Part shown: one piece after another, positions 935 to 62,497 of the stretch
Position numbering within the stretch: the stretch's first letter is position 1
Layout of the letters: every line of letters begins with the position of its first letter
Assembly (NCBI GenBank): GCA_037893245.1
Contig: JBAIAA010000509.1
Coordinates: 248,001-312,000, forward strand
Direction: 5' to 3'
Length of the DNA: 64,000 nucleotides
From: Crossaster papposus
Lineage: Eukaryota; Echinodermata; Asteroidea; Velatida; Solasteridae
The notes under the pieces: generated by a model
The model's database searches: none
Told to the model about the DNA's origin: nothing
Seen by the model: the letters and a program-made list of their open reading frames with translations, nothing else
Made by a program: the position numbers and the translations under genes

Positions 935-1056
935 CTCCCATCTCTTGTTATTAGTAGCATCAGCCGATAGATACTTGTTGTACAAATCCTCAGCTTTCAT
1001 CAGGTAATGAGCCGTCTTCCTACGAACTGCCTCACGCCGATTTTTATTATCATCCG
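935..1056 (-). CDS. SNX15: PX-MIT gene exon 9 (third MIT helix)
   Basis: Codes residues 439-479: EAVRRKTAHYLMKAEDLYNK, then a polar tail ending RWE. A donor-like GAG|GTGGGT ends the exon in phase 0. If it is not used, the frame runs 19 more codons to a TAA at 877-875, with an AATAAA on the minus strand near 534-529 that could end the transcript. Which applies decides whether the protein stops after MIT (SNX15-like) or continues to a kinase domain off the window (RPS6KC1-like). Confidence 0.82.
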
Positions 1057-4000
1057 CTAATGGAAAAGAACAAAAAATCTTGTCAATTTATAACTAGTTC
1101 GCGCCGGAGGACGTAAATATAAACGCAAAGCTTTCCCCAGATTTAAACACGTCACGAGCAAGGCCGGAAATGTCTGTCAGCAGCGAGCAAGGCCAAAAAT
1201 GCGTTGGTGTGCTTCCCGGTACCATCGGCTTGAGCCCGCCTCGGATCGAGTTTCGTTAAAATTAATCCCGCGCCTCGGCTCGGTGATGTGAAAAATAATC
1301 CCGGCTCGAACTGGTTACTTGCCTAAATAATTACATCAAACACAGGAGAAAGTTACAGTCTGAAGAATTAAGTTTTATTCCTGAATACCCGAGACAGTTA
1401 AGCCATTCCAATTGGTCGAGAGCCCGATGCATGGGTATGTTTAAACAGTCGATAAAACATGGCACAGCCAGTTTTAAATTTAGACATCTATGACCCATGG
1501 TCCATGGTCTGGTTCATGACCCTTACATTGGTTAAACCTCCCACAGCATTTGCATTACAACCAATGAGTCCGTATATTAATGGTCCCGTTGCTATATCAC
1601 GCATATATCTTCATATAAGGGCACATGTGCAAGGCACATACCATTAAAATAGCTGGAGGAGTGTTCCTCAAAACACGAGGTAAAATGGTTGAACAAAATC
1701 GTTCAAAAATTGAATTTTACTTGTTTTGACTTTTTGACCAAAAGGTATTTATGAATGGGAATAAAAATGTGGTTGGCCGGTATTTAATAAACAAGTATGC
1801 TTAAAACTGGCCCAAGGGTCTGGGCATTGTTAATGCCCTTGCCTTCGACTCGGGCATTAACCTGTCCCCGCCCATGAGCAGGTTTTTAAAACTACATTTT
1901 GATTCCCTTAATAATACTCATCTACAAGGAGAGACACTGAAAAATATGCAATTCCGGCTGACTCTCACCAATGACCCCTTTGAGCAGCACGCCGACTCCC
2001 GACTTGTAGAGGTCAAAGGCCGCCTGGTAGCTGCCGTTAGCCTCGTTCTCCAGCGCTAGACTAATGTGATATGCGGCTTGGTAGAGGTAATCTTCCTCCC
2101 CGCCTACAGTGACATGAGCCACGCCCATGCCTCCTGTCGATTCCGTTATAGGCTTGGCCTGGGATCAAGAACACAGATTAAATGTAGTCATAGGGCCTTT
2201 TTAAATCACTGGCTTCCGCTTTGTCTTGGGCTTAAAGGAAACATGTAATAAGGTTTTTTTTTGCTTAAATCAATAAAGTATCATATTGACAACAACATTA
2301 TGTGTGAGGTTGTGTTTATTTTCTGTGATAAATGGGAGAAAATAATTTTTGAAAATGTTTAGTTATACCACTCCGCCCCTCAAAGGGAAGCCTCATTAAC
2401 ATAAAACTTCGCGTGGGGTATGACAAAAATCGAGGCAGAGAATTGCCTCGCTGCGGGGGTGCGCTACCCGGGCCTGGCTTGCATTATGCGCGCATTGCAT
2501 GCAACAAGTCTTTGTCTACGAGTTTACCATGCCGGTTTTTTATTCTAAATCAGGGTAAAAATACAACTGTTTTCAGTCATGCCGACTAGATGTGTAGCTG
2601 CTGGGTGTAGCAAAACTACCAAGGATAGAGTAAGCCTTCATTTGTTTCCAGCTGATCCTAAATATCGGAGGATTTGGACAGCCAAAGTAAAGCTTACCAG
2701 AGCGAAGTGGTCCCGCCGGGCCTAGTGATTTTTCGGCCCGATCTGCAGCGACCATTTTGAGCGGTCGTGCTTCGACACTGGTCTGTACAGCAACTTTGGC
2801 ATGCCCTTAAAAAACATGCTGAAGTCAGATGCTGTCCCAACGATATTCCAATCAGACGAATCTGTACTGTTTTCGTCAGATTCACTAAAAACCGACAAAA
2901 AACTTTCACGATCGTCCATGTTTAGTCCGCGCCGATTACTGTACATGTACATGTACATGTACTTTGTACGGTATCCTTTGCTTTGGACAGCGTGCGCGTG
3001 GGTGATCGCGTTTACATGGGGGTGTACGTACGTGTGCACAAGGCGTACGGGATTCGTACACTCTTGTACTCACAACAATGTGTGCGTACGTGGCCACGCG
3101 AACCCGTCTCGTACCTAGACGTCGCGTACCGACTATCGATAATTTGTCCGGGTTCTGACTCGATTTACATCACTCATTTTGAGTGGCCGCGAAATTTAAA
3201 AAGGGGGGGTCAATTTCTGGACGGCAAATTACCACACTAAACGTACACTAGAACCAGTTTGGCTTTTTATTCACATTTGATACACATAAATCTATTGATT
3301 TAAAACAAAAAATGCGTAATGAAGATGTTAGACTGCTTGTTTCCTTTAAGGAAATTTTAGGCTACCAACTGCAATGAACTCTAGCCACATTCTGGTGCCT
3401 GTTGTAGCTAACACGTTGACTGCCGGGCATAATTTCACAGGGCGTCCACATTTGCCAAGCATTGTACGCATGTGTGCATACATAATAAATACTTATAAAA
3501 AATAAAAAAACCACAGAAAAAAATAAACGTTTGATAGATGTATGTCCTCACCACTGCCAGCAGCGTATTTGTTGCGTTATCAGTGATGCCAGTGTATTCA
3601 ATTTACAATACAAAAACCTTTCATTTTCTACGAGTATACTCGCAGTGGCAGAATCCGGTACACTTGTTGCTACGACTATACTCGTAGTCGGCAGTCAACG
3701 TGTTAAGAAGGAGTCAATCGATTTATATGAACCCAACAGAACAGTTTGAATATTTACATTTACATTTGCATTTTATTCCATTATACAATCGTTGACTGCT
3801 GTGGTGTGGGATATGACGTTTTGAACACCCTCGGGGACACATAGCACCCTCAGCTTCGCCTTGGGTGCTATGCATTCCTTGGGTGTTCAAAACGTCATAT
3901 CCCACATCACAGCAGTCAACGATTGTTTTGTTATACCTCTGTCTTGAAACTCAGCAGATATTTATAAGGATTAAAGATACAAAACGTTCTAGTAAACATG

Positions 4001-7000
4001 TATTTTACTGTGGTAACGTTAATCACGCAAACGAAATGAACTCGCACACTTCGTCTGCTCATTCGCTGCTCCACTACAGTTTACTATCGTTAATAGTGTG
4101 CAGTTCAAAATTGCGCAGGTACCAATGATATACAGCTCACAGCGAACTAACTGCAGCTGACGTGTGATATCACACAGGGATGGGATATGCGTTGTTACAC
4201 AACAGACACGTGACCGTTCTAGTGTCTAGTATCCAAGACAGAGGTATAACATTCTAGTTGCTTCTGTGATTTGAAAATCGGAGGCGAAAACAAAGATGAA
4301 GCAAATGTTTTTAAAAAAACCTAGTCTGGATGCTGGATATTCTGTCTTGCTTTCTAATCTTACAGACTCCATGCAAGTAAAGTTGATGTTGGGGTCACAA
4401 TTGCTTTCAAGCAGAGCCAGATAAAAAAATAGGAGAAAAGAAGGATCCACATTTTCAACAAAGCAGGACAAAAGTAGGACTTCTGCAGGCTTCTAGGAGT
4501 AGTTTTTGTTGAAACTCACCCATGTCCACTGCATCATAAGACTCATTTGGCACGTTCTGTACTTTGAAAAACCTGTGTTTCATCTGTAACCAAGCTCTTA
4601 GAAGTACAGTTGCAGTACTCCTGCATCCAATTGATCGTGTGATTTACATAGAACAGTGTACTGTGTAACAGTGTTTTGAAAAACATTGAATAGGATTTCA
4701 TTTTTCGAATTTCTGGGACAAAAAAAAGTAGGAAATATTGTTAAAACAATGTTTGTAATCTAGAAGACATGTACACACGGAAAAACAATTTGAAGCGAGG
4801 CTGGAAATATCTGTCAGCGACCGGCTCACAGCTGGCATGTGTGGGGGGTGTGCTGCCCAGGGAATTTCAAAATCATATTGACGTATATACACAAAATATT
4901 CATACACAGCTTCATGAAAACACAACCGGTACCTTCAAGATGGCAGTCGGATGCACTGGGCCGGAAAAGCTCAATAACTACTTACGTTAAGAGATCTTGA
5001 GTCCACAATGCCCCCATCAGAGTACATCGCATCCTTCTCGGCAGCCTGCTGAGCTCGGATGCAGTTGAGATAGGCCCTGGCCATGGTGTTACGCTCATTC
5101 TTCACGTCTTCTGTTGACTCTGGGGGAATCGCTGTGTCTGCTTTCTGCTGCTCTTTGGAGCTGCCGGTAGTGGTCGATGAATCCAGCCCCTGGAAACAAG
5201 TATAAAACTAAATAATATAATGTACATGATTCATGTTTAAAGGTAGGATAAACCATTTGCAGATATCAAAAAATTTTACTACCGAATTATTAAGAAGTAT
5301 CTTACTTTTTTGAAAGTAAATAACGACTGTAGGCATCCAGCAAAATTTAATTTGATTTACAAAAATTCACAATCGCCTGACGGCGATCGCGAAAAAAACA
5401 AGAACAATATTAGAACCACTGCCCAACGCCGGTTGAAAATTATCGGACAGGTCAGTTAAACAATATTTACTAAAAAATACAACCCCCCAAATCCTCCAAT
5501 TTATTTAAGCAATTACCAATGGTGTATCCTACCTTTGAAGCTGAGGTATACCTTTAACAGCTATCCTAAGAGTTACCAACCAAAATACCGTTAAAACGCG
5601 TACTTGTTATAAAAATACGAGGTTCTCCCCCCCCCCCTTTCTGAAATTGTCAAAAAAAACACACACAAAAACATGCGAACCCTACTTTTGGGAAATTGAT
5701 GGTGATACCACTGTCAGTGGACAGATCTGTGGTGGAGTCTGCCGGTGTAGAGCTATCTGGTGAGTCTGGCTGTGGGTCCTCGTTGAGCACCGCACACATG
5801 TCCATGGCTTGGAATAACCAGCTGTTGCTCTGGTGTATGGGGGAAACCACAGCCATGGCTGATGAGGATAGCTCTGGAGGAAACCAAACACAAAGAAAAA
5901 AAGGGGTGTTTGAGTCTGGCAATGGTCAAGGAGTGAGGTATGTTATTTTAGTTATTACTTGGGGACTGGACTTATTACTGGACTTATTATAACATGATAT
6001 CAAACAAGTGGAACCAGACTATTTTGTATTCTCAGTGCCACCTCGTCCCCTGTAATTATTGTAATCATTTCTGGTATGAGGTTGCTGCACAGCATCGCGG
6101 TTTTATTCTTTTCCGACTTGACGTAAATGCATGTCAAAAACGGGAAGTATATTGGGAGAAAAAAACAAAAAACGCGGAGTCACGCAAAATAAAGCGGAGT
6201 TGGAAAATTAAAAACGCAGAAAATTACGCTTATTCAAATTGCGACTCATAAAATTTTGAATTGAACAGTTTTTAACGGTCATTTTTCATTTAATGAAAAA
6301 ATAGTGTCGTATCATATCCCTGCACATAAGTGCACATATCTACCATGACAGGTACTCAAGGCACTATATCATTAGTACACCAGGGGCCAATTTCACGGAG
6401 ATGCTAAGCGCACAAATTTGCTTAGCATGAAAATTTGTCCTTGGTAAAAACAAGGTTACAGACCAAATTTTTACGTGATCTTTATTGTTTTTGATTGACA
6501 ATCAGCTGGTTTTTTGCTTAGCATAAAAAACACGTAGAATTTTGGCTGTTTTTTTTTTTTTATTGAGCAAGACTTTTTTGTGCTAAGCAAATTTTTGTGC
6601 TTAGCAGCTCCGTGAAATTGGCCCCTGCTCATTGGGCCCATGAAACATTCCAAATACCATCTCAGCTCCCTGGGGAGTATACAGCTCAATGCTGCCATTT
6701 CGACGCAAAGCAGCTAATCAACCATCTCTGCCCACATAGGTACTATGCAATTTGCTCTTTGGTGGGAAGAAGCAATGAGTGACAAAGTGCCTTGCCCAAG
6801 GGCACAGGCACCATAGCCCCAAGATGGACTCGAACCCACAACCTGCATCTTTACCCACAGAATTCAAAGATCCAGACCACGTGGCCACGGCACTTCACAA
6901 GAAATCTTTACCTGTATCTGAGAGAGGATCAAAGAAGGACAAGTCTTGCAGCTGAGGGAGTGGCGTGGATGGCACCGAGTCCTCACTGAATGTTGTCCGA

Positions 7001-10000
7001 TCATCATCGTCGTCGTCGTCATAGTCGACCGTCCCATAGTCTGGCATGTCCTCTTCATTTTGCCTGTGGAGCCACACACCACCCAGAGATGGGCTACTGG
7101 CAAGCCCCTCCGAGGAACCAAGCTCTCTCCCCTCGGAGGGAGTGGTAGAAGCCGCATCACACCTTGGTAGACTTCTCGAGTGGGATGTTCCATTAGAAGG
7201 CCTGGGGAGAACCTTGGGTTGCAGGATGGACTCCGATGGGGACCGATTTATTGAGACCTCCTCTCCTCCCTTGACAAAATGAAATAAAATTACATCAACT
7301 TTCTAGTTAAGCTATTATCATTGCAGATGTAAATTTCTTAAATGATTTCTCATAACACACTACTGCAAGTTTCAAGCATTATATCCACGTGCTGCACGTG
7401 GGTAAAATGATCTATTGGGGCTGTGGCTAACTTTAAACGGTGACAGGTTAATTGGTCATCAATTTGTCATCAATGGCAGTGAAGATAGTAATGCTCAGGT
7501 TATTTGCAGTGCCTTTATAAAACTCAAGTTTTTGCATTATTTTTTCAGAGCGCTCTGACATTGGTGATCAAAATGAGCTGTTCAACTCTTGTGACATGGT
7601 ACATCATTCCACTTTGCCGTATTTTCCCGTACATGGAGTTCATTACAAGAGCATGTCAGAAATGAATTTCTTTTTAATTTTAGCAGTTTCAAAACAAGAT
7701 TAAGGCCAGCTTTTGACAGTCTTGTGGATGTATACTTGTACTAGGTTGTGTCAGTGGACTTGTACTGTAATACATGAAAGACTATTCTTAATATGATGTG
7801 GATTTGCGGGGAATTTTGTATATTAAGCCTTGTTAGGGTGTTTGTTAGGGTGTATTTAAAAAAAAAAAAATGTTTAGTCTGTTGGTCTGGATGTCAGTAT
7901 GTCTGTATGTTTGTTGGGCGGTGTTGGGGTATTTTTTTTCCATGCTTGTTGTGTCCTGTGTGTTTGTGCTTGTGTGTTCATTTGTTGTTTTTTGTTTTTG
8001 TTTGTTCTGTGTTTTGTGCTAAATTGTTCTAATTGTAGTTGGAGAGCCTCTCTAAACAATTTTATAGCTTTTTAGGCAATCCTTCACGCCTGCATACGGT
8101 GCAATTTAATGTAACTGAATTATTTAATTGTTACATGCATATTTTATTTTGCCTGAGAAATTATCTAATAAATAAATACAAATAAATAAAGTACATGTAC
8201 ATGTTTGCATGTCAGACTTTAGTTTGATATTTGGTTGCACAGTTTCTCAATAGTAAAAACGTGAAGAGGGAGTCTATTCGTGTCTGTGCCATACTGAAAT
8301 CATGTGCAAGATTCTAGGGAGTTGTGTATATCTCACCGCGAAGAAATTCCGGTAGTGATTGCTGCGTGTCAGTGGAGTGAATTTGGCAACAAATTCCAGC
8401 AGTTTGAGGGCGCTCTGACGTCTCTCTTCAACGACATCTTCGTCAAAGCGACCTTGGTCAAAGAAAACAAAAAGAAAAAAATTAGAGAAACTTTCACTCA
8501 ATAAATATCTAAAATAGTTGCTTAACCCTAACGCTCCTCAATCCTCCAAAATCCTCATTGCAGTTTGTGAGGATTTTTGAGGATTGAGGCTGTATGGGGT
8601 TTTTAACCAGTTCGCGCCGGATGACGAATATAAACGCAAAAATTTCCCCAAATTCAAAACGGATGACGAATATATACGCCAAGTTCAAGTTCGGAAATAT
8701 ATGTCAGCAGCGCGCAAGGCCGGAAATGCGTGGGTGTGCTACCCAGCACTATAGGCCTGAACAAGCTTCGGATCGAGTTTCGTTAAAAATAATCCCGCCC
8801 GTCGGCTCGGCGATGTTAAAATAATCCCGGCGCGAACTGGTTAAAAAAAGAGGATTTTTGAGGATTGAGGCACAATGTCGTTTCAAGTGTGGAGGATTTT
8901 TGAGGATTGAGGCTGAATGGGGTTTTCAAAAAATGAGGATTTTGGAGGAATGAGGCTGAATGGAGTTTTCAAAAAAACATAATAAGAATTTTTGAGATTG
9001 ACTTTTTTCAATCCCCAGAATCCTCATTGCAGTTTTGGAGAATTAAACAAAATGAGGATTTTGGAGAAGTGAGGAACATGATGTTGTTTCAAGTGTGTAG
9101 GATTTTTGAGGATTGAGGCTAAATGGGATTGAGGATGGTTGCTAGCAAAAAGGGCCTAGGGGGTTAGGGTTAATTTACCCTTACCCTGCCAGACGCAACA
9201 CAGTGCACCATCTAAAAGAGTCTGGGGCACTTTGATACATTCTTCTGTCAACACTATTGAGAGCTAGTACCCATTAAACAATGCCACAATGCCAGAGATG
9301 GATTATACTCCATTGGGTGACCACAGACTCTAATGAATCTTGTTGGAGGGATGTAGTCAATTCCCTGCAAGTTCATCACAAGTCCCTGCAAGTCCCTGCA
9401 AGTCCCTGCAAGTCCATCACAAGTCCCTGTAAGCCCCTGCAAGTCCATCACAAGTCCTCCAATTCCAATTTAAATCTCAAGCTATTCAAATGAGCTTTGA
9501 CAAAGGCATTCCTTTTTCATTGTTCAACCAGTTACTTATGACTGGCTTGTGAAAGGACTTGTGAAAGGACTTGTGAAAGGACTCGTGAAAGGACTCGTGA
9601 AAGGACTCGTGAAAGGACTCGTGAAAGGACTCGTGAAAGGACTCGTGAAAGGACTCGTGAAAGGACTCGTGAAAGGACTCGTGAAAGGACTCGTGAAAGG
9701 ACTCGTGAAAGGACTCGTGACTGGACTCGTGACTGGACTCGTGACTGGACTCGTGACTGGACTCGTGACTGGACTCGTGACTGGACTCGTGACTGGACTC
9801 GTGACTGGACTCGTGACTGGACTCGTGACTGGACTCGTGACTGGACTCGTGACTGGACTCGTGACTGGACTCGTGACTGGACTCGTGACTGGACTCGTGA
9901 CTGGACTCGTGACTGGACTCGTGACTGGACTCGTGACTGGACTCGTGACTGGACTCGTGACTGGACTCGTGACTGGACTCGTGAAAGAACTTGGGAAAGG

Positions 10001-13000: not shown

Positions 13001-16000
13001 GCTACCACCCTTTAAAATGAAATTTGTAAAGGTTAGTTTTATGGTATATATCTATAACTATATAGGATTGAAACAAACAATGGGTTCCAATTACCAAATG
13101 TATATGATCCCTTCAATATCTGTGTACTATACTTTTATTTACCAAAGAATTTAGCTTTGGCAAAGACGGGGAACTTTTCAGGCCTGCGTAAGTTGTAATG
13201 CAGCTGGGCGAGTGCCTTGTGTAACTTCCTGAAATCATTGTAGCGCTTCCAAACCACCGTCTGAAATGTGGAAAGAGAACATGACAAACGATGGTCAACG
13301 TTTATATGGAAACCTGCTAATATTAAATATTTAGGCCCAAATCTACATCATAAATGTTGCAACTTGATGCCACTTTTTCCTTCATATGTGACCTGTCACA
13401 ACAAAATGAGAGTAAAGTCGGAAAAATTGAAAATTGAGATATTGGTATTTTCAAATTCTTGGGAAAGATGGCTTTCCAATGGTACATAACACTTTGGGGT
13501 CTTGCGATAATGACTTTTTACAGCGCTGTAGAAAGTCATGGGTTTCACAAAACGTGTTTGTGAGAAAACTTACTTTAAAAATCTCAAACAAAACACACAA
13601 AAGATTACAAAACAGGACAAGTAAGGTTATTAGGTTGAGCATAGCAACGGCTATGTTCTAATCATTATTTCTTCTTGAAATTTTCCACACATACAAACTA
13701 TTGTTTAAACAACAAAATATCAAAATTTTGAAAACGTAGGATACTTAAGAGGACCTGATTTGCATATTTAATTACCGTGTTAATTAGACAACTAATGGAC
13801 TTTAATCCAAACACTAACTACGCAAACACTACGCAAATCGCGTAATTTAAGAAGTTTTCGATCATCTGATCTCACCCAAAAAAGCGCAATATGTAGAGGA
13901 GGACTTGGGCTTTCCAAATTACTCAAAATTTTAAAATTGACCACCCCTTCATATTTTGACTTTGGATGGCCATATCTCTGAATCACATCGTGCGACTTTA
14001 CTCTCATTGTATGTATATATCATCTCAATGGTCAATCAGTCCAAAAAATGTTGTTAGGAAATACTCTCCGTAGACTTGTTACACAACAGCTGAAGTGGCG
14101 TCAGGATACTACGGTACAGTACATGTACATTCTTTCCAAAATGGAATAAGATAAGTACATGTACATGTACTGGTAGTTTGTGTTAACACCCTGGTAATAC
14201 TCTTTAGTGAGATGTGGGGTTCTGAAAAGAACAGGAGGAACCACACATCTCACTAAAGAGTATAACCGTGGTGTTACCGCAAACTATATTCTTATTGCCT
14301 TTTCGCCATGTAAACCTTCAAATCGCAAAATGGAATAAAGTATTCCACATGGAACCATTTTAAAGATAAAAAAGTCAACCTCTTTACAAAAATATGTCAG
14401 ATAATCAGAGAGTTGCTCTGAAATGCAATATTCATAAAACTTGTAAAGTTCTACATAACTTGGTGATGAGGGGTTATCCATTTTTAAGAGTAAAGGGAAA
14501 GGCTATTATGAAGCCCTAACATAAATATATCAACAGAAAAATATATACAAAATGTTTTCTCACCTCAACTACTGCTTCAGGTTTTGCTACGGAGAAAGCC
14601 TGCATGAAACAAACAAAACAAATCAAGTAAACAAAGAATTAGGTGGCTATTAATGCAGTGAGCTAAAATGTTATCCTCTAAAGATTGCAGAAAGGATTTC
14701 CTGTACAGATATCACTGTTTTGTAATTATACATTTTTAACCAGTTCGCGCCGGGATTATTTTAACATCTCCGAGCCGAGGGGAGCGGGATTATTTTTAAC
14801 GAAACTCGATCCGAAGCGGGTTCAGGCCGATAGTGCCGGTAAGCACACCCACATATTTCCAGCCTTGCTCGCTGCTGACAGACATTTCCGAACTTGAACT
14901 TGGCGTGTTTATGCATCATCCGTTTTGAATTTGGGGAAAACTTTGCATTTATATACGTCATCCGGCGCGAACTGGTTAATCTTCAAAGCGCCAAATGTTT
15001 CCGTCCTATTTGCTTATTTTCTCTCAACTTTCTTTTCTTGATTCTTCTTCTGTATTTTTGCTAGCAAACATCCTTGGGTCTTGCCAGTACTCGGCAGTCT
15101 TATTACATGTATATTGCAATATGTTGTGTAAAACAATTACCAGCGTAAACTGTATGACACGCAAAGTCTAGTCCCGGTTGGATGGTAATGCCTCTCAATT
15201 CATATTCAATACCGTCGAATCTAGTACAAAAATTCAGGGCACTTTGTGAAGATCTTCTAGGAATCAAGCGAGACCAAAAAAAGGCAACACGTTTGTCTTG
15301 GACTCCACCCTTTTTTACGGAATTTCTTGGGACCGGAAGGTGCTATGTTTGCGTATTAGTGATTAACAGGAAAATTTGTAAAAAATGTGGCCGTCAAATG
15401 ATAGGGTGTTCTTTATCTGAACAATTGTTCATGTTTTACAAAGATCCGAGCATGGGGGTGTAAGTATAAGCCACTTCGACATTCCAACTGCGCATGTGCA
15501 CAACAAGATTCAAAAAATTTTCTCTTGAGATAAACACGGCAGACAAATGCACACAAGGCTATGAGGAACGTGGTAACCGAATCCGCATTTTGTGCATTTT
15601 CTTGTGAAATCAAAAAGACGATGGCCACACAAAACACCTGAAAACACCTGAAAACACCAAAACGTAAAAAAAACATTTACTTAATAACTTTAGAACACGA
15701 CGATCTCTTTAAATTCGCTGGTACCCCGCTATGCTTTTGCACGCAATCGCTGAAATGTTTATCTCAAAAAATTTTTTGTAAAATCTCCATGTGCACACGC
15801 GCAGCGGGAATATCGAACTGGCTTATTCCGCTGCCACGTTCACGGGTCTAGGCTTAACATCGTAGTCCTTACAAATACAAGTGACAAAAGTGACAATCCT
15901 TACACAGTGCTCAAATTAAATTTTTACTCTGTGAAGTACAAGGTAAGACAAAAATATGTTTCTAAAATAGCGTCAGGTTGAAACATTCTTTCCAACTTTG

Positions 16001-16254
16001 CGTGTATAAACGTCATCCGACGCGAACTGGTTAAAAAGGGTCCCGTGGCGTAGTCGTATTCCGTATAATCGCCGGTGTGGTGTACAAACTACAAATTTAA
16101 TTTGGTTTTGTTTGTCATCTATGTCGAAAATGTTTATTACATAGCATACCCTGTAAGTCACTTTGTAAACAGTAAATCCCTTTTCGTGTTTGGTGGGGTC
16201 TGTGACGGTGAAATTTCTGATCCAAGTATTTTTCGACTTCGTCGAAGATGCCAT
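935..16254 (-). CDS. SNX15: SNX15/RPS6KC1-like PX-MIT protein, nine exons, C-terminus uncertain
   Basis: The spliced product has 479 residues before the last donor-like site. Exons in order: 16254-16150, 14599-14564, 13260-13143, 8452-8337, 7269-6912, 5873-5686, 5189-4986, 2158-1969, 1056-935. All eight introns are GT-AG and every phase joins. Residues 14-125 form a PX domain with the PI3P-binding WKRYNDF motif and the GRFDEDVVEERR helix. Residues 126-375 are low-complexity, with a run of seven Asp and an LSFFDPL motif resembling the ALFDPF motif of vertebrate SNX15. Residues 399-465 form an MIT helical bundle (YLYQAAYHISLALENE, then EAVRRKTAHYLMKAEDLY). PX domains bind endosomal PI3P and MIT domains bind ESCRT-III tails, so a role in endosomal sorting is likely. 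The gene could be SNX15, or RPS6KC1 whose kinase exons lie beyond the left edge. The ARL2 neighbour and the FDPL motif favour SNX15. Confidence 0.88.
1094..1314 (+). mobile_element. CCAGTTCGCGCC MITE, copy 1
   Basis: Terminal inverted repeats CTAGTTCGCGCCGG and CCGGCTCGAACTGG; about 221 bp. The internal GGATCGAGTTTCGTTAAAA is shared with the other copies. The flanking TTAA is mutated. Lies in PX-MIT intron 8, right beside exon 9. Confidence 0.85.
1969..2158 (-). CDS. SNX15: PX-MIT gene exon 8 (first MIT helices)
   Basis: Codes residues 376-438, with EEDYLYQAAYHISLALENE and YQAAFDLYKSGVGVLLKGV, the first two MIT helices. The acceptor TGATCCCAG is used because only it preserves phase with exon 7; a nearer AG would shift the frame. 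The donor is GTGAGA, phase 1. Confidence 0.9.
2579..3118 (+). pseudogene. THAP-domain relic with two in-frame stops
   Basis: The frame starts MPTRCVAAGCSKTTKDRVSL and contains the C2CH zinc-coordinating residues of a THAP domain (Cys5, Cys10, Cys56, His59 within CSDHF), the conserved RIWTAKV Trp and the closing AVPTIF motif. All lie in one frame and at normal spacing. TAG (2723-2725) and TGA (2726-2728) interrupt it at codons 49-50. After the domain the frame stays open to 3118 but turns into low-complexity sequence over an ACATGT repeat. THAP domains occur in host DNA-binding proteins and in Kolobok and P-type transposons. It lies antisense inside intron 7 of the PX-MIT gene, so a transposon relic is most likely. 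Confidence 0.7.
3785..3926. repeat. 142-bp foldback
   Basis: Arms of about 55 bp: ACAATCGTTGACTGCTGTGG against CACAGCAGTCAACGATTGT, continuing through GGGATATGACGTTTTGAACA. In PX-MIT intron 7. Confidence 0.9.
4986..5189 (-). CDS. SNX15: PX-MIT gene exon 7 (linker)
   Basis: Codes residues 308-375. The second half (NERNTMARAYLNCIRAQQAA) is likely helical. The acceptor is TTTCCAG and the donor the consensus GTAAGT. Both ends are phase 0. Confidence 0.82.
5241..5534. mobile_element. TTAA-AGGTAGGATA MITE, copy 1
   Basis: Left end TTAA then AGGTAGGATAAACCATTTGC; right end AATGGTGTATCCTACCT then a mutated TTGA. The centre holds CGCCTGACGGCGATCGCG. Sits in PX-MIT intron 6. Confidence 0.85.
5686..5873 (-). 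CDS. SNX15: PX-MIT gene exon 6 (linker)
   Basis: Codes residues 245-307, including SPIHQSNSWLFQAMDMC and a Ser/Thr/Asp-rich tail. The acceptor TTTCCTCCAG is strong and the donor is GTAGGG. Phase 1 in and phase 0 out fit both neighbours. Confidence 0.8.
6381..6627. mobile_element. CAGGGGCCAATTTCA MITE, copy 1
   Basis: 247 bp with ends CAGGGGCCAATTTCACGGAG and its complement, plus inner TGCTAAGCACAAATTTGCTT arms. In PX-MIT intron 5. Confidence 0.85.
6790..6870 (-). repeat. tRNA-related SINE fragment
   Basis: The minus strand carries a B box (GGTTCGAGTCC). The adjoining GTGCCTTGCCCAAGGGCACA hairpin is a common companion in invertebrate SINE-like repeats. In PX-MIT intron 5. Confidence 0.4.
6912..7269 (-). 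CDS. SNX15: PX-MIT gene exon 5 (Ser-rich and acidic linker)
   Basis: Codes residues 126-244. It opens with GGEEVS, matching the GGE that follows the PX domain in SNX15. It then runs through a Ser/Pro-rich stretch and a run of seven Asp, and ends LQDLSFFDPLSDT. The acceptor follows TTTTGTCAAG and the donor is GTAAAG in phase 1. Confidence 0.85.
7860..8190 (+). mobile_element. Possible LINE 3' end with AAATAAATA tail
   Basis: T/G-rich stretch ending GCCTGAGAAATTATCTAATA then AATAAATACAAATAAATAAA. No coding remnant. In PX-MIT intron 4. Confidence 0.35.
8337..8452 (-). CDS. SNX15: PX-MIT gene exon 4 (end of PX domain)
   Basis: Codes residues 87-125: GRFDEDVVEERRQSALKLL to HYRNFFA. This is the helical end of the PX domain, with the GRFDE and EERR signature shared by SNX15 and RPS6KC1. 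The donor is GTGAGA, phase 0. Confidence 0.93.
8521..9165. repeat. Degenerate GAGGATTTTTGAGGATTGAG repeats
   Basis: Several copies of a roughly 40-60-bp unit built on GAGGATTTTTGAGGATTGAG and GCTGAATGGGGTTTTCAAAA. A related piece lies in ARL2 intron 1 (19140-19255). A MITE (8607-8840) is inserted in it. Confidence 0.75.
8607..8840 (+). mobile_element. CCAGTTCGCGCC MITE, copy 2
   Basis: 234 bp between perfect TTAA duplications (8603-8606, 8841-8844). Ends CCAGTTCGCGCCGG and CCGGCGCGAACTGG. Almost identical to the copy at 12177. Confidence 0.92.
9363..9457 (-). repeat. Short AAGTCCCTGC tandem repeat, inverted relative of the 12-bp minisatellite
   Basis: About nine degenerate units of AAGTCCCTGC and AAGTCCATCAC. 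Read on the other strand they give GCAGGGACTT, the motif found at the far edge of the large array (12120-12140). Confidence 0.8.
9541..12131. repeat. 12-bp minisatellite with higher-order repeats, about 2.6 kb
   Basis: About 215 units of 12 bp, in variants GACTGGACTTGT, GACTGGACTCGT, GAAAGGACTCGT, GAAAAGACTCGT, GAAAGAACTTGG and GACAGAACTTGT. The GAAAGAACTTGG marker recurs at 10271, 10439, 10751, 10919, 11183, 11351, 11615 and 11783, so spacings are 168, 312, 168, 264, 168, 264 and 168. A 432-bp higher-order unit (264 plus 168) is therefore repeated. The 12-bp period keeps three frames free of stops for about 900 codons. The array lies in intron 3 of the PX-MIT gene. Confidence 0.95.
12177..12410 (+). 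mobile_element. CCAGTTCGCGCC MITE, copy 3
   Basis: 234 bp between TTAA duplications (12173-12176, 12411-12414). By eye only about two bases differ from the 8607 copy. Confidence 0.92.
12726..13112. mobile_element. TTAA-AGGGATCGTATACG MITE, copy 1
   Basis: 387 bp. Left end TTAA then AGGGATCGTATACGTTTGG; right end CCAAATGTATATGATCCCT then TCAA. Ends 30 bases from exon 3 of the PX-MIT gene. Confidence 0.9.
13143..13260 (-). CDS. SNX15: PX-MIT gene exon 3 (PX core)
   Basis: Codes residues 48-86: TVVWKRYNDFRKLHKAL through FPVFAKAKFF. The Arg-Tyr pair of WKRYNDF is the PI3P-contacting motif of PX domains. The acceptor is CATTTCAG and the donor GTAAAT. The exon ends in phase 1 and joins the Gly at the start of exon 4. 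Confidence 0.93.
14176..14284. repeat. 109-bp foldback
   Basis: Arms pair GTTTGTGTTAACACC with GGTGTTACCGCAAAC and TACTCTTTAGTGAGATGTGG with its complement. In PX-MIT intron 2. Confidence 0.9.
14564..14599 (-). CDS. SNX15: PX-MIT gene exon 2 (36-bp microexon)
   Basis: Codes only AFSVAKPEAVVE (residues 36-47). It fits the PX segment between YKVTYR and VVWKRY in position and length. The acceptor is CATGCAG, the donor GTGAGA, and both ends are phase 0. Confidence 0.85.
14740..14975 (-). mobile_element. CCAGTTCGCGCC MITE, copy 4 (reverse orientation)
   Basis: 236 bp between TTAA duplications (14736-14739, 14976-14979). The internal GAGTTTCGTTAAAA motif reads on the minus strand. Confidence 0.9.
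15182..15463 (+). pseudogene. Possible piggyBac transposase C-terminal fragment (Cys-rich end)
   Basis: The end of the frame reads ATRLSWTPPFFTEFLGTGRC followed by YVC, then CKKCGRQMIGC. This resembles the piggyBac tail, where RL..HFPE precedes a cross-brace Cys-rich domain (RC..C, then C..C). Spacing of the later Cys residues is off and the upstream frame is not recognisable. It lies in intron 1 of the PX-MIT gene. Confidence 0.3.
15988..16030 (+). mobile_element. CCAGTTCGCGCC MITE, terminal fragment
   Basis: Only one end is present: CGTGTATAAACGTCATCCGA and CGCGAACTGG, followed by TTAA at 16031. Confidence 0.7.
16150..16254 (-). CDS. SNX15: PX-MIT gene exon 1 (start of PX domain)
   Basis: Codes residues 1-35, beginning MASSTKSKNTW and running into FTVTDPTKHEKGFTVYKVT, the first strand of the PX domain. 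The frame stays open upstream, but this Met is chosen because the family starts 12-15 residues before the FTV.DP motif. The donor is GTATGC and the exon ends in phase 0. Confidence 0.88.
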
Positions 16255-16612
16255 GATCGACGGTCCAGCACTCCAAATTATCTCATGAAGTCGTTGTCGA
16301 AACCTCAGCTTAGGCTTCATCTTGGCTCCATCACCATTGCCAAACTGCATGAACGAAACCAATAAAGACGAAGCTGAGGTTTCAAAAATGGCCCTTGTAT
16401 CTGGATCTGTCACACGACGTAGTGTGGCTCCTGACGCAATATGTAGCTGTAAGCCAGACGAGAACATTACAAAATATTTGATCACTTGGTGGGGGCGCTA
16501 TACAAGATTACCGCGACAACTAAACTTCGAGTTCGACAGTCGATAGGATTTGATCAGCAATTTGTCGGCGATTAAAACCATTTATACGTACGTCCACACA
16601 CATTCCCTCAAT
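16255..16612. promoter_or_regulatory. Putative bidirectional promoter between the PX-MIT gene and ARL2
   Basis: Only 358 bases separate the two divergent start codons, and neither 5' end shows another clear exon, so both genes probably start here. I see no obvious TATA box. A short foldback (CGAAACCTCAGCTT at 16296 against AAGCTGAGGTTTC at 16371) lies in the half next to the PX-MIT gene. Confidence 0.6.
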
Positions 16613-16677
16613 ATGGGATTGTTGACAATTTTAAAGAAAATGAAAGAGAAGGAAAAGGAAGTTCGACTTCTAATGCT
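16613..16677 (+). CDS. ARL2: ARL2 exon 1 (N-terminal helix)
   Basis: Codes [20 protein letters not shown] plus ML (21 codons and two bases). The donor is GTATCC. The exon is too short to show as a long open frame but matches the ARL2 N-terminus almost residue for residue. Confidence 0.95.
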
Positions 16678-19600
16678 GTATCCTTTTGTAATATAAAAAA
16701 TAATGTATTTTGCTTGCAGTTACTGCGTGCAAACCGTTAACGGATAACGGTCTCGACTTGTATCGTCAGACCCCCTAAATCTGCGCGGTCCTATTTCTGC
16801 GCACTCGCCTTTAATTTCAATTTGGCAACGCGCGCGTCTTAAAAATGATGTACTGTCACTAGGATCGTATTCTTTGATGCATGAACTTTCACAACCACCG
16901 ACAAAATATGTAAAGTGAATGCTTTAACGGTAAGTCAGGCAAAAATTGAAAAAAATCTGCTTTTTACAGCTAATTTACTAGGTACAATTGTTGGTAGAGG
17001 CTTTCGGGCCTGCAGAAGTCGAAAAGATGACCGCACGGTAAACTTTGTTATTCGCCCTCTGTCGTCAGTATTATAGCTACCGTGTCCTATATAATTCATT
17101 ATTTTTTTAAAGGCGGTTTAAGACTTGCGGTGCAACAAAGAAGACATGTTACTTATATTATTTTGGAATTTTCTTCTGTCATACCTATTAAAATCTGACA
17201 TCTTGACAATGTTCTCTGTTGATTGGGATGATCAATATATGACATATATGACATACATTCATCAAGATAGTTTAGGTTACCAAATCTAAGAAGGGGTCAA
17301 TTTATTAAGGCATTTAAATATTATTAGGTTTATTTGTATTTTTAATTAATTCAGGCCTAATCAACAACCGAGTTTATTGATGCACCCTTCTAAAAACTCA
17401 GCGAACCAATTGCTACTTGAAATGAACAATACAACGCACAACTTGGTCCTGGGTGTACCTTGTATAAACCATTATCACAAAGATTATTAATATTAGAACG
17501 AGAGGCTTTGAACGTCTGAGGTGACGATTTGTAATATTGTAAAACTATTTTGTATTGCCTAAAGAACATAAAAATCCATTTTAGTATGAATTCAGAGCAC
17601 GGCAGTCTTTAGTTTAGTTTGACTGAGAGTATGATTCGTGAACACTCGTGTAGAGCTAATCCTACTAATATTTAAAGTAACAAAAATTATTATTAATTAT
17701 TTTAATATTAATGTACATTTCCAACTTTATTAATACATTTCTTCAATGATAACAATACAAACTGGGGTCTACATATATATTAAATAGGTAAATATGTATA
17801 AATTGGATGTGAATTTTAAATATATGCCTTTTTGTAAAAACAAAATTAACAATTATCTATTGAGAATTCAACCATTATGTCGAATTAATCTTGAAATTAC
17901 GGAAAGTGTACTGGCATTGAAAAAAAAAAGGAAATAATTATGTTAAAAATGTTCAAGCTAATATATTTTCCAAAATCAAGGAGTAAAAAATGTTGTTCTT
18001 GAGTAGCATGGCCCGGACACCGTAGATTTTCCATGAAGCGCCCCACTGCGCAGATTTAGGCAGGATTTTTTTCTGAACGCCAGAACTGCACGCTTTGGAA
18101 TTCCCCGCTTGTCGCTACAAATAAAGATAATTTGGCTTTGTTAATCAGCATGGTGGAAGATCGTAAGCCAACAATATAAGTTTTGTTGATGAAAAGAGTG
18201 GTTGCTCTTTTAGTTTTAAGCTACTCGGTTGCAAACCCTTATGTGCGCAGAAATAGGATGATCGAGGATACTATGTGTGACGGCTTTTTATTTAGGCAAC
18301 AGTGCGATGACCCGGTTATTACTGTGTGATAATGACCGGGTTGGGGGATGACCGCTGCTAATGGACCCGGTCATCCCCCAACCCGGTCATCCCCTAACCC
18401 GGTCATTATCACTATCAGGGCAGTAATAATTAAACCGGGTCCTCGCACTGCACTGTTATTCCCTTTAATAAATACCTTTTTAACAAGAAAAATTGTGAAA
18501 TTGCTCCAAATTTCGTGACTTTCACTTTCAGTGATATTTCCAGCGTTTTGTGTTTATGTTCAGGGGCCATAGTTTTAGCTTATGCATGGTACCCAATCTT
18601 TTTTATATGCGTTGTGTTGCCCATACTTCGGGACCAGTCGGGACAAGTGCATTTTGAAAAATGCCGCGCGTATAGATACAAACGTTCTACGCGTACATTG
18701 ATAGCACGCAGTATCAAGATTTGATGCGTCCTTGTTACAAGTTACCGTAGAACTGTTGCATTCGGCCAATCATTGGCTTACATGATGCTGGATTCATGCT
18801 GGTTAAGGGGACATTTATTTGCTTCTTCTTGAAAGCCGGGTTATTACTACATGATAATGTCCTCCACGTGATCGATTCTCAACCAATTAGAAGCCAGCAA
18901 CTCTCCTAGGTATTTATTAGACAAAAATATAGTGCCCAAGATTTTGGATTAAACCTACAATAAAATACAAAGGTCGCCAAAACCACGACAATAACAACAA
19001 AAAACACTTACAAATCGGCCTGAATCCATTCCATGGCCATGCAGGTTCTTTGCTAAGACAACAATACACAATTATATATTACAAATTAAAAGTTTTAAAG
19101 GGTTATTCTGTGTGAGTGTGTCAAATTACCCATTTTTTATTTAATGCCCTCAATCTTGCAAATTCCTCTGATGCATCTTCCAAATGTGCCCTCAATCCTG
19201 CCAAATCCTGCAATTTGCAAAGAGGATTTGGGAGGATTTGGGATGGTTAGGGTTAAACTTTAAACTTTCTTGGGCTAGTTTTTGTTGAGATAGTTTTATT
19301 AAAGCTGTGGTCGGATGAAATTGTTTTGCTCGGAAGAACCTTAACCTTGCAAAAAAGTGGACTAGACAATGCTGGCAAGACAACAATTCTAAAGAAATTC
19401 AACGGGGAAGACATCAGTACCATCTCTCCAACCCTAGGCTTCAACATCAAGACATTGGAACACAGAGGGTGAGTTGACCCCTTGACGCCGGTATTAATTC
19501 CTCACTCACTGCATTATACGCATGACTGCACAGTAACCTTTGTCCAGCAGCTGCACTGCACAATGGACACGAGCATGCAGCTGTGACACAGGCCATGGTC

Positions 19601-22600
19601 TACGGCATAGCACAGCTGACAACATTCCGGACAGATTTGCGGGCCACGGCCATAGCATCAAGGGGTTAAAAAAGGAAAAATTGAGGTTGATTTGAAACGT
19701 GATCCTTGATCTATCAGTGTTTCATGGAGGGTTTTGTAGCCTGTATGTGTCCTGTACAGCTGACTGAGCATCACTATTGTAACAAAATCAGCATTGTGCT
19801 AACAGATTACGTGTTTACATGCTTAATTGGTAAACAGTGGTGTCTTCTTCCAGAACTGTATTTAGTCTTACAGACTGTGAGGCCCAAAGATGTTAAAAAC
19901 ATTTTGTTGGAACAAAAAAACGTGAAAATTACAAAAGGTCATATATGCAAAGTAGCAGTCTAATTCCAATCAAACTTGGTTCATAGATGCAATACCGTAA
20001 CCTTCATATTGTGTTTTTTCAAAGGTCAAAGGTCATTGAGGTCAAGTTTTAAAATAGGCTTGAATTGTAAAATGTGTCTGAAAATGTTTGCAATATTGTA
20101 TACTTCATATGATGATCCTTTCAAAGGTCAAGTACTGAGGTGAAAGGTCATTTGAGGTCAAATGTTATTTAAGGTCAAATGCCATTTTAAGTCAAAGGTC
20201 ATTTGAATTCAAGTTCTTAATTAGGATTGAATTGCAAATTGTGAATTATTCAAAAACTTTAGGTCCAATTGCAATCAACCTTGGGTCATGTATGCAATAT
20301 TGTAACCAGTTATATGATGGTTGTGTCAAAGGTCAAATACTGCGGTCAAAGGTCGTTTAAGGTTAATTACGAAAGCAGACGAGACATGTGGTTCGTGACC
20401 CGTCCTTGTTAGACTTCCAATCAAGTATATTTTTAGACCCACTTGAACTTATCCGCTGCTGGCCGCAATACTTGCCTGTTTCTTGGTACGTCCAATACTT
20501 ATGTGTGACGTACATTTGTATTTTCACTACTATGTACCCAACTTTGCTTCACGAGCAGGGCCTGTGGTGACTGACTCTGGGGAGAGTCGGAGCTAATCGC
20601 GGTATGGCACATGGCACTAATTACCCGAGTCAACACAGGGGAGCTAATAAAACACACCCAAAATGAATGTACACGTACTCTGGACTGATTTAAGACATAA
20701 CACAACTGACAGATTGTACTTGACCCATCTTGCTGTTATTCCTTTCAGCTTTAAGCTAAATGTTTGGGATGTCGGAGGCCAGAAGTCGCTGCGGTCATAC
20801 TGGAGGAACTACTTTGAGAGCACCGATGGCTTGATTTGGGTCGTAGACTGCGCCGATAGGAGGAGACTGTTAGACTGTAAAAAGGAGCTTCATTCCCTGC
20901 TAATAGAAGAGGTATGTACAGTACGAGTTCATGACTAAAATATTGCAAACTGCATATACAAACTGTTGGACTCTGATTCTGGAGGTATGTCTCACCCAGT
21001 GTAAAGACAATCAGTATATTAGGGGTTCCAGTACCCATCCCAACAGATTCCAACAAAACCTGGTGTTGGAGTTTGACTGGATAGGGATTGTTAGGGTTTT
21101 AATGTTTGTTAGTACATTTGTGTGTATAAAATATCTACATGCAATTGCAACGTATGCACTTTTTCAGCTGCACATTTGGTTAAAATAAAATTGTTTGAAA
21201 TTTACACATTTCTTAGTGCTCATTTCTTGTCTGGACTAAAATTCTACAAACCGTTTTGCGAATATTTTGTCAAACAAATAGCCAAAGCTAGGTTTTGGGG
21301 CTACCTTTCTGTAATATTTCTGTAACCCTTTCTGTAATATGTCATTGATGTCATTTCAAGTTTTTCTCTACCCTTATCTTTACATTTGTAACCCGCCCTG
21401 CAAAAATATGTTAAAAATATATTTTTTGTATTTTACAGTTGCTCAGAAAAAGCAGGAAATAAGCCTTAATTTTATTTTTGGCACAACTCTGTAGTGTAAT
21501 GCATTGGTCTTTTACAATTTTTGGAAATTTGCTTTTTCTCAGTTAAATTCAAAATGTCTTTGAAAAGAAATGAAGATTTACAATTGTAGTGCTTCATCAG
21601 ATGCTATGGTAAGAGAATGACAAAACCTGTATTAAATTTAATTTAGGGATCAAAACAATCTTTTTAATCGATCAGATCTGAAAATATAGGTGTCGGAGAA
21701 ACTAAAATGCCTTAAAACAAAAACATTATTTGTTTGAAAAAAAATGACCTCTGAGACAATAAACAGCCCTTTACGTACAAATGTATTTTGCGACATCAGA
21801 CTCATTTTTGCAGAGCGGGTCACATTTGATTTTCACTCTAATTGTCATGCTTATTACCAGCACCAATGAATGCTCTGGTTCACTATTGGCCATGTTTTGC
21901 TTTTTGCAAATCAAAAATTACACCATGAGGCCAAGGATTTCATGTGCAGTGCACATTGAACTGATGATTCTATATAAGTGATTGTGAATCCAGAGATATA
22001 GCCGAGTCTGGAGGCGATGCCTAAGCTTGGCTAACCACAGGAAGTTCAGAACTGATGATTCTACAAGTGACTGTGAATCCAGAGGTGTAGCCGAGTCTAG
22101 AAGCGATGCCTTAGCTTGGCTAACCACAGAAAGTTCAGTGCTGATGTAAACATCTATGAAAGTGTATCTGTCTTCTATTTTTCTGCAGAGATTATCGGGA
22201 GCTACTCTGTTAGTATTTGCTAACAAACAGGATCTACCCGGGTCCTTACCTGCAGATGATATTAGACAGGTAGGTTCCATTCTTTATCACTTATCGGGCA
22301 AAACTTCAGTTGTCAGTACATGTATATTATACACATTTTGTTTGTATTCAGAGGTTTTGAGCGTAATCAACAAAACAAGCTAATTTGAATAGGGTTAAGT
22401 ATAAGGGTGTGTATTTATGTTGTGACACCCCTACGTTTCGACTACTCAAACATGGTTTGAGGGTCAATATTAGCTCCTAATTGGCATTTTCAATACCAAG
22501 GGAAGCTAATATCAACTACCCACCCGAAATATACCATGTTATATATACCATGTTTTACTATACCTCAAACATGTATATATTCAGTTTACTTACAATTTAT

Positions 22601-23643
22601 AGCTCAGGAAAACACTGATTACATGTCGCCGTGCTGCCATCTTTTTGTGTGTTGCAGCTTGGGCGATGTTTGCGCATGCGTGCTACACCCATGAGTTAGT
22701 CTTGCATACGCACTGTGGACCTCCGAACAATATAGGTCCACACGATGCGGGAAGAGGTTACGGTTTGTGGACTTGCACACGTCCACAATCTGTTTTTCAG
22801 TTTCCGAAAAAGAGCGCTAGAGGAAAAACGGGTTAGGGTTATATATAGAAAAGATAGAAGGGACAGCTGAGAGGCCCATAATCCAAATTTGAGGGTAAAT
22901 TTGTTTTGGGGAAGCGAGAAAAATGAGTATTTAGTCAAAGTTTGTTAACTACACGAAGACAAAGGAATGTCCACAGTGCGTATGTAAGGTAAAGCTGTGT
23001 GTGCTAGTGCCGCACCCGTGTGCTAGTGCTGCACCCGTGTGCTAGTGCCGCACCCGTGTGCTAGTGCCGCACCCGTGTGCCAGTGCCGCACCCGTGTGCC
23101 AGTGCCGCACCCGTGTGCCAGTGCCGCACCCGTGTGCCAGTGCCGCACCCGCGTGCCAGTGCCACACCCGCGTGCCAGTGCCACACCCGTGTGCTAGTGC
23201 CACACCCGTGTGCTAGTGCCACACCCGTGTGCTAGTGCCACAATTGCATTGTAAAGCGCAGTCTTAGTAGACTAGCCCATTGGTAACCCGTTCGCTAATC
23301 TACTACGCATGCACATTAACCCTGTGCCCGAATACTCGCGTGCGCGCTTGGCAAGCAGCAAAAATATCAGCTGGCACGTGATGATAAATGGACCAGTGAG
23401 AATTTGCCTCGGGTCATGAATATGTATAAGGTATAGCAAACACATTTTCTGCCCAATATACTAAGTCGGTGTTCTCAATAAACATCTTGCTCTCTTCTTG
23501 TCTGACAGACTCTAGAGCTTGACAACATCAAGACTCACCACTGGCTGATAATTGGCTGCAGCGCCGTCACCGGCGAGAATTTACTTCAAGGAATTGACTG
23601 GTTGGTGTCAGATATTGCATCCAGGATTTTTACCATGGACTGA
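16613..23643 (+). CDS. ARL2: ARL2, ADP-ribosylation factor-like GTPase 2 (five exons, complete)
   Basis: Exons 16613-16677, 19358-19468, 20749-20911, 22189-22269 and 23509-23643 join in phase to give 184 residues, the same length as human ARL2. It starts [20 protein letters not shown], the amphipathic N-terminal helix. The GTPase motifs are all present: GLDNAGKT P-loop (23-30), switch I with [14 protein letters not shown] switch II, NKQD specificity motif and CSAVTG. ARL2 regulates tubulin folding with cofactor D and releases lipidated cargo from PDE6D and UNC119 in its GTP state; this comes from the family. Gly2 is present, but vertebrate ARL2 is not myristoylated. Introns are about 2.7, 1.3, 1.3 and 1.2 kb and full of repeats. 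No disabling change is seen. Confidence 0.96.
18298..18457. repeat. Foldback of GACCGGGTTGGGGGATGACC in ARL2 intron 1
   Basis: Outer ends AACAGTGCGA and CACTGTT pair. Inside, GATAATGACCGGGTTGGGGG pairs with copies of GGTCATCCCCCAACCCGGTC. The unit is present on the right side more than once. Confidence 0.7.
19358..19468 (+). CDS. ARL2: ARL2 exon 2 (P-loop and switch I)
   Basis: Codes [18 protein letters not shown] and [17 protein letters not shown]. The acceptor is an A-rich AAAAAAG with a poor pyrimidine tract, chosen because it completes Leu22. The donor is GTGAGT, phase 2. Confidence 0.95.
20021..20366 (+). repeat. AGGTCA-rich repeat in ARL2 intron 2
   Basis: At least eight AGGTCA or near-AGGTCA half-sites in one orientation. 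Two (20023 and 20030) are one base apart, a DR1 arrangement. The spacing of the rest is irregular. It looks like a degenerate repeat; a nuclear-receptor enhancer role is inference only. Confidence 0.6.
20749..20911 (+). CDS. ARL2: ARL2 exon 3 (switch II, WDVGGQ)
   Basis: Codes [20 protein letters not shown] to LHSLLIEE (54 codons after a split Gly). The acceptor is CCTTTCAG and the donor GTATGT. Confidence 0.96.
21958..22143 (+). repeat. Two-copy direct duplication in ARL2 intron 3
   Basis: A unit of about 85 bp, from ACTGATGATTCTA through GCTTGGCTAACCACAG, is present twice in tandem with a few changes, just before exon 4. Confidence 0.85.
22189..22269 (+). CDS. ARL2: ARL2 exon 4 (NKQD motif)
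   Basis: Codes [20 protein letters not shown] and PADDIRQ, 27 codons in phase 0 at both ends. The acceptor is TTCTGCAG and the donor GTAGGT. Confidence 0.96.
22998..23242. repeat. 19-bp minisatellite in ARL2 intron 4
   Basis: About 13 units of GTGCTAGTGCCGCACCCGT, with internal variants GTGCCAGTG and GCCACACCC grouped toward the middle and right. Confidence 0.95.
23509..23643 (+). CDS. ARL2: ARL2 exon 5 (CSAVTG, stop)
   Basis: Codes [20 protein letters not shown] to the C-terminus SRIFTMD, followed by TGA at 23641. The acceptor is TCTGACAG. A TTAA-flanked MITE begins 140 bases after the stop, probably within or beside the 3' UTR. Confidence 0.96.
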
Positions 23644-31225: not shown

Positions 31226-31479
31226 CATCGGATCATCTTCAATGTCCGGGAAGCCTCGACGCCTTACGAGGTTGTAAAGGGCAGCGCGCACACGCACCAA
31301 TCACCCGCTCGTTCTTGACAGCCGTTGTTCTGTGAAATCATAGGAACCACGATTGTTTGGAAACGAAAACTGTCGAGTTGAGACGTGGCACTAATTGACG
31401 TTAACGTTAACGAGTTTTGTTTAAACAAACGATAGCATAATATTAGGCCTTGTATAATTTTGCGTTTATGGAGTACCAT

Positions 31480-32098
31480 CAGTGGATTAAAAAAAAAAAT
31501 TGTAAATAAAATGAATCAACTAACCTATGTACTCCGTTGTAACTTGCTTCAGCACGATGTCTTGGTTGAAGAAACGTTGTGAGGATCAGTTTTGAAGAAT
31601 AACCAGTGTCTACCAACAAAACCTCTACATTTCTTTGTTGTCCTCGTTGCCCCAAAACATTAGATAAGGAACTTTCTCTAAGCACACGGGAGTCGTAGGT
31701 ACTGCCTGGCCATTTGGCATTTAGTTGGGTACACTTATTATCCACAACAGCTTGAGTGGTAGTTTTTCCTGTTGACGTACTTGTTCTTCGCTTCGTGTTC
31801 TCCTTGGGTTTCTCAGATTCGTATCTGTGCACCGTCAATAACTTCACCAATACGCCGGGAAATCCTGCGGCGTTGAAAAAAACCTCTCTGAATATCGAGA
31901 ACATCTGCAGCTAGCTGCTGACCACCTCACAAAATCACCCAACTTTCGTGAAAGACACGAGGACATAGCGTTTATTATTCTAGAGACGGGGGCTGAGAAA
32001 TTCTTATCGTATCCCCTACTGTCCGCTGAAATGTTTCGCACGCGTATAACTGCAACGCTATCAATACCTTGATTTTCGGAGAAATGGCACAACTTCAT
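31480..32098 (-). pseudogene. HARBI1-like (PIF/Harbinger) DDE transposase pseudogene
   Basis: Pieces of the transposase lie in different frames. Near 31840 one frame reads IDGAQIRI, the usual IDGTHIRI with the first catalytic Asp, then YVNRKNYHS. Another frame reads AKWPGSTYDSRVL (second Asp), LLVDTGYSSK and YNGVHR. Frameshifts and a stop separate them. Upstream (32098-31900) is a weak remnant with FFSTPQDFPAYW. Harbinger transposases cut at TWA targets. No autonomous copy remains here. Confidence 0.75.
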
Positions 32099-62490: not shown

Positions 62491-62497
62491 TAACCTT

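Follow-up and report, generated by a model that had tools for sequence, protein, structure and literature searches.

Head-to-head ARL2 and PX-MIT genes in Crossaster papposus, likely an inherited linkage of a known kind

In the genome of the sea star Crossaster papposus a complete ARL2 gene and a gene for a protein with a PX and an MIT domain (the PX-MIT gene) lie head to head. Both were found in one stretch of 64,000 nucleotides, which we call the window (contig JBAIAA010000509.1, positions 248,001 to 312,000). ARL2 is on the + strand, the PX-MIT gene is on the - strand and 358 bases separate their ATGs (16255-16612). An alternative in-frame ATG of the PX-MIT gene lies upstream at 16320. If that ATG is used, the gap is 292 bases. 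Divergent starts less than 1 kb apart mark a bidirectional gene pair, and the two starts here fall within that distance. Both are ordinary genes of animals, placed here in divergent orientation. Features of this kind are known, and the locus does not represent a novel type of system.

In human, homologues of the two, ARL2 and SNX15, are likewise neighbours. We consider the pair a likely inherited linkage of a known kind. The explanation that we hold to be somewhat the more probable is that the single PX-MIT gene is co-orthologous to SNX15, RPS6KC1 and RPS6KL1 of vertebrates, that it ancestrally stood beside ARL2 and that the adjacency was inherited. An earlier note on this DNA had described a complete ARL2 next to a divergent PX-MIT gene of the SNX15 family, with 358 bases between their start codons. 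Both gene models, the ARL2 and PX/MIT matches and the size of the gap bear out two divergent neighbours that are homologous to human ARL2 and to the SNX15/RPS6KC1 family.

Gene models

All exons of both genes were modelled from genomic sequence alone (splice sites, frame and homology) and not from transcripts. ARL2, a GTPase in tubulin folding and in the release of lipid-modified cargo, is complete, with five exons on the + strand that hold 184 codons plus TGA. Exon 1 (16613-16677) was placed by splice sites, frame and its match to solved ARL2, the other four by splice sites and frame. Exon 2 (19358-19468, GLDNAGKTT... HRG) has an acceptor with a weak pyrimidine tract (cttgcaaaaaag). It is followed by exon 3 with switch II (20749-20911, WDVGGQ), exon 4 (22189-22269, FANKQDLPG) and exon 5 with the stop codon TGA (23509-23643). 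The product and a solved chain of ARL2 share 83% identity. Its top match among solved structures is ARL2 9m1i (E 9.9e-104), compared to 1e-63 for the best ARL3 chain. Because this 184-residue Arf-family GTPase is full length and matches ARL2 chains far better than ARL3 chains, we assign it to ARL2. Intron 4 carries a minisatellite of a 19-base unit (12.7 copies, 22999-23239).

The PX-MIT gene starts at 16254-16252 and was modelled on the - strand with nine exons, 479 codons and 1437 coding bases. Pfam recognises both domains above the curated cut-offs (PX, E 3.1e-10; MIT, E 9.3e-13). The MIT domain lies C-terminal of the PX domain, as in SNX15, and this is also the domain order of RPS6KC1. The start codon and the beginning of PX are in exon 1 (16150-16254). 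Exons 3 (13143-13260, VVWKRYNDFRKLH) and 4 (8337-8452, FGRFDEDVVEERRQ) hold the PX core and the PX end, and for both the gene model agrees with Pfam and with the solved-structure match. A linker follows, which is acidic and of low complexity in exon 5 (6912-7269) and continues through exons 6 (5686-5873) and 7 (4986-5189). Exon 8 (1969-2158), also supported by Pfam, encodes the first part of MIT, and exon 9 (935-1056) encodes its end.

Exon 2 needs a comment. Without it, the PX domain lacks a piece between its exons near 16.2 and 13.2 kb. The missing piece is supplied, with the right phase and length, by a 36-base exon (AFSVAKPEAVVE, 14599-14564). It was picked for fit and is only ninth in an ad hoc score ranking of candidates. 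We chose it despite this rank because it completes the PX domain without a local gap and has good splice sites. The PX alignment to SNX15 then has no gap at its place and one single-residue gap elsewhere.

The last modelled exon does not end at a stop codon. It ends at 935, in frame (phase 0), at the GT donor GAG/gtgggt, and for this reason we think that the gene probably continues left of the window. The donor fits the consensus at 7 of 9 places and, counted by eye, is at least as good as 7 of the other 8 donors.

Two introns of the PX-MIT gene contain repeats or remnants of other sequences. Intron 3 contains a minisatellite (9534-12130) in which a 12-base unit, ACTTGTGACTGG, is repeated about 216 times with a strong strand skew. 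Because of this array, each strand has open frames of 878-950 codons, which could be mistaken for genes. In intron 7, antisense to the gene, a THAP domain is split across two + frames (2549-3118), its second half scoring just under the Pfam cut-off. The stretch looks like a decayed mobile element.

Relatives of the two genes were also sought outside animals. Scans of viral contigs gave 30 pattern matches with ARL2, 262 with a two-sequence ARL2 alignment and 3 with the PX domain of the PX-MIT gene. Prokaryote genome contigs gave 585 with the two-sequence ARL2 alignment. The number of confirmed relatives was 0 in every scan.

Adjacency with ARL2

The earlier note had compared the pair with ARL2 and SNX15 as adjacent tandem genes in human. 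We take the human orientation to be tandem. The genes here are divergent instead, and the PX-MIT gene may extend beyond MIT. The mammalian linkage itself is supported by the read-through name ARL2-SNX15, which is in use in the literature, and by one 0.79-Mb sheep interval whose gene list includes ARL2, SNX15, SAC3D1 and BATF2 (PMC10298528).

Can coincidence explain the shared neighbour? In that case, ARL2 and a PX-MIT gene would have come together independently in two lineages. Assuming a gene number of about 20,000, we calculate a chance of roughly 3 in 10,000 that one of three co-orthologues neighbours ARL2 on one side or the other, a figure weakened by the undefined breadth of the scan that selected the window. 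Because this chance is so small, we prefer descent over accident. Some observations do speak for coincidence. The relative orientation is unlike that in human, and only two host genes were recognised, as Pfam detected no further host domain over the 40 kb that follow ARL2. The synteny has no third supporting neighbour in the window. We nevertheless regard coincidence as very unlikely. It is more likely that the adjacency shared with human ARL2-SNX15 is inherited.

Inheritance does not imply a functional link. Given the tandem order of the human genes, promoter sharing is not required for the linkage. Thus we read the adjacency as inherited and not as proof of functional coupling. A literature search for text on ARL2-SNX15 synteny found none; microsynteny supplement lists lay outside this search and could hold the pair.

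Relationship to SNX15, RPS6KC1 and RPS6KL1

The human sequences of RPS6KC1, RPS6KL1 and SNX15 outside PX that were used for comparison are provisional, and the SNX15 PX domain was checked against 6ecm. Among solved structures, the best PX match is SNX15 6ecm (E 7.3e-33), and the next is SNX7 (2.6e-4), among 7 matched sequences that do not include RPS6KC1. The PX domain is hence of the SNX15 type, but the match does not separate SNX15 from RPS6KC1.

Direct comparison places the two human PX domains closer to each other than to the sea star gene. Over 115 aligned positions, SNX15 and RPS6KC1 share 72 identities, the window gene and RPS6KC1 share 64 and the window gene and SNX15 share 61. The SNX15-RPS6KC1 value exceeds that of the window gene with SNX15 in 98% of PX bootstraps and that of the window gene with RPS6KC1 in 93%; for PX and MIT combined, the corresponding values are 99% and 87%. 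The PX trees lean in the same direction. The approximately unbiased (AU) test gives p = 0.81 for SNX15 with RPS6KC1 (the best tree), 0.35 for the window gene with RPS6KC1 and 0.09 for the window gene with SNX15 (the worst).

By score, the MIT domain is slightly nearer to RPS6KL1 and RPS6KC1 than to SNX15. Bit scores of the window gene are 74.7 with RPS6KL1 (provisional sequence), the highest of the three human homologues, 69.3 with RPS6KC1 and 58.9 with SNX15. An MIT quartet without an outgroup gives AU p values of 0.77 for the window gene with RPS6KL1 (best), 0.32 with RPS6KC1 and 0.11 with SNX15 (worst). Human RPS6KL1, a MIT-pseudokinase, is not known to carry PX, unlike the window gene. RPS6KC1 (RPK118), a PX-MIT-pseudokinase, has the same PX-MIT order, and its provisional human sequence is 56% identical in PX and 47% in MIT. 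The window covers PX and MIT of the present gene, and no kinase part. In Drosophila, CG7156 is tabulated alongside RPS6KC1 as a 'protein kinase' (PMC2435276).

The PX and MIT results fit a split of SNX15 and RPS6KC1 within vertebrates only, without proving it. The name SNX15 given in the earlier note is therefore only half right and would, on these comparisons, be better widened to the SNX15/RPS6KC1/RPS6KL1 family. Membership in the family holds, and the PX score leans slightly to SNX15. The choice of SNX15 as opposed to RPS6KC1 is not supported: the window gene lies outside both in the best PX tree (not significantly), its MIT is slightly nearer to RPS6KL1 and RPS6KC1 and its last modelled exon lacks the stop that SNX15 has at this point. 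The opposite outcome, a grouping with RPS6KC1 that excludes SNX15, which the earlier note had named as a refutation, did not appear either; as the PX tests show, that tree is not the best one, and the tree with SNX15 fares worse still.

Alternatively, the window gene may be a true SNX15 orthologue. The split between SNX15 and RPS6KC1 would then predate the bilaterian ancestor, and the locus would be, as the earlier note proposed, an ancient pairing of ARL2 and SNX15 in which one gene has been inverted. Among solved structures, the PX domain has a close relative in SNX15 alone, with RPS6KC1 absent from the matches. In human, ARL2 stands beside SNX15 and is not known to stand beside RPS6KC1; the sheep interval likewise links ARL2 to SNX15. 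Against this stand the closer PX relationship between SNX15 and RPS6KC1, a MIT domain slightly nearer to RPS6KL1 and RPS6KC1 and the in-frame donor that follows MIT. We judge true orthology to SNX15 to be unlikely.

Several further points weigh against the co-orthologue explanation, and some of them favour SNX15 directly. In bit score, PX matches SNX15 (125) slightly better than RPS6KC1 (121). The MIT match to SNX15 reaches into the linker (31% over 160 positions, but just 1.6 bits more than MIT alone), whereas the match to RPS6KC1 does not. Reading through the donor at 935 adds 19 more residues before a stop, so that an SNX15-like end is possible. An AATAAA lies beyond it at 534, yet half of sampled 934-base stretches contain one. 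No match was found in bases 1-934 to provisional N-terminal parts of human RPS6KC1 and RPS6KL1. Since these parts extend no further than the beginning of the kinase region, this comparison is not a full test for kinase exons. MIT alone produces a tie over 73 positions: SNX15 and RPS6KC1 share 34 identities, as do the window gene and RPS6KC1, compared to 31 for the window gene and SNX15, and the bootstraps (SNX15-RPS6KC1 above the window gene with SNX15 and with RPS6KC1) reach only 74% and 45%. No PX or MIT topology is rejected at 0.05, and the outgroup of the PX tree consists of other, partial PX chains with 54 to 105 positions aligned to the window gene. The reliance on provisional sequences for RPS6KC1, RPS6KL1 and SNX15 outside PX counts here as well. 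Finally, adjacency was compared between the window and mammals only.

The duplication argument also draws on positions in the human chromosomes. We take SNX15 to be at 11q13, RPS6KC1 at 1q32 and RPS6KL1 at 14q24, regions with well-known fourfold paralogy. These positions are provisional, which weakens the argument. A literature search for a paralogon holding the three genes found no confirmation. PROX1 at 1q41 and PROX2 at 14q24.3, as given in PMC2211742, lend weak support to such a paralogon.

The stretch between the two genes

The 358 bases between the start codons (16255-16612; fraction of guanine and cytosine 0.447) are a possible shared divergent promoter. The stretch is short enough that it may serve both genes as a candidate promoter. 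It contains 20 CpG (observed over expected 1.13), a level that 25% of 1273 stretches of 358 bases sampled from the window also reach. In CpG content the gap is thus not unusual. An inverted repeat lies within it (16294-16388), with 27-base arms that are 81% complementary and 41 bases apart. Bases 16301-16361 recur at 44151-44090 (85% identity over 62 bases). The presumed promoter thus includes a portion of a dispersed element, which has another copy near 44 kb.

Is it function that holds the pair together? A shared bidirectional promoter could co-regulate ARL2 and the PX-MIT gene, and this could be the ancestral state. The layout matches that of divergently paired genes with bidirectional promoters, which likewise start on opposite strands; the starts here, 358 bases apart, are known from sequence alone. 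To our knowledge, ARL2 and the PX-MIT protein have no pathway in common, and the human genes are in tandem. About 10% of mammalian gene pairs are head to head within 1 kb and generally co-expressed, according to PMC2194621. However, a layout so common is weak evidence by itself, and the gene pair studied in that paper is reported to be regulated asymmetrically. PMC5722932 cautions that microsyntenic genes are more often assumed than shown to be co-regulated. The usual CpG content of the gap and the dispersed repeat inside it also count against this explanation. Sequence support for co-regulation consists of distance and orientation alone, and we doubt that co-regulation is what keeps the two genes together.

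Rest of the window

Bases 24001-64000 were compared to Pfam in 18 six-frame pieces (E 0.001, stops read as X). No host protein domain was found, and the sole hit was a DDE_Tnp_4 transposase fragment on the - strand (31479-31910), which we take to be of Harbinger type. It scores below the curated cut-off in the six-frame piece and above it when scanned alone. As a control, the six-frame scan was applied to the two known genes, where it recovered 3 of the 5 exons of ARL2 and 1 of the 2 that encode MIT. Since known exons were lost, genes of very small exons could escape the scan. Ten open frames of the window were scanned for families, and 7 remained without one. An Rfam search of the window gave 0 matches at the gathering score. 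At 62493-63173, a 118-base unit is repeated in tandem in 5.9 copies.

Discussion

Under the co-orthologue explanation, the PX-MIT gene would run off the window into a pseudokinase part of the RPS6KC1 type. SNX15, RPS6KC1 and RPS6KL1 would be vertebrate duplicates of one pre-vertebrate PX-MIT gene, with the kinase part lost from SNX15 and the PX part lost from RPS6KL1. The ancestral gene would already have stood beside ARL2, and in human the linkage would survive only at the SNX15 copy. Both genes probably start in one open promoter region and are transcribed outward in two directions.

By analogy, the PX-MIT protein most likely works like its relatives, with PX binding an endosomal phosphoinositide and MIT binding ESCRT-III tails. 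In a binding screen, ESCRT-III-family proteins were bound by the MIT domain of each of SNX15, RPS6KC1 and RPS6KL1 (PMC9477494), and a published table has rows for SNX15 and RPS6KC1 that we interpret as ligands of PX among the lipids (PMC8340361). PMC6639074 reports RPS6KC1 among the proximity hits of Rab5A, an endosomal GTPase; 'ARL2' has 0 occurrences in that paper.

The most complete scenario goes further. The window would keep the pre-vertebrate head-to-head pair of ARL2 and a PX-MIT-pseudokinase gene with one promoter region. Following the genome duplications of vertebrates, ARL2 would have stayed with the SNX15 copy alone, and this copy would have lost its kinase part. The human read-through would then be a late product of a divergent pair turned tandem. 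We offer this full sequence of events tentatively, as a possibility that is itself rather improbable.

Even if the linkage proves ancient, no new mechanism would follow from it. It would in that case provide a gene-order marker for the relationships between SNX15, RPS6KC1 and RPS6KL1, which the short domains compared here leave unsettled. The divergent pair of the sea star and the read-through tandem pair would then be two states of one neighbourhood.

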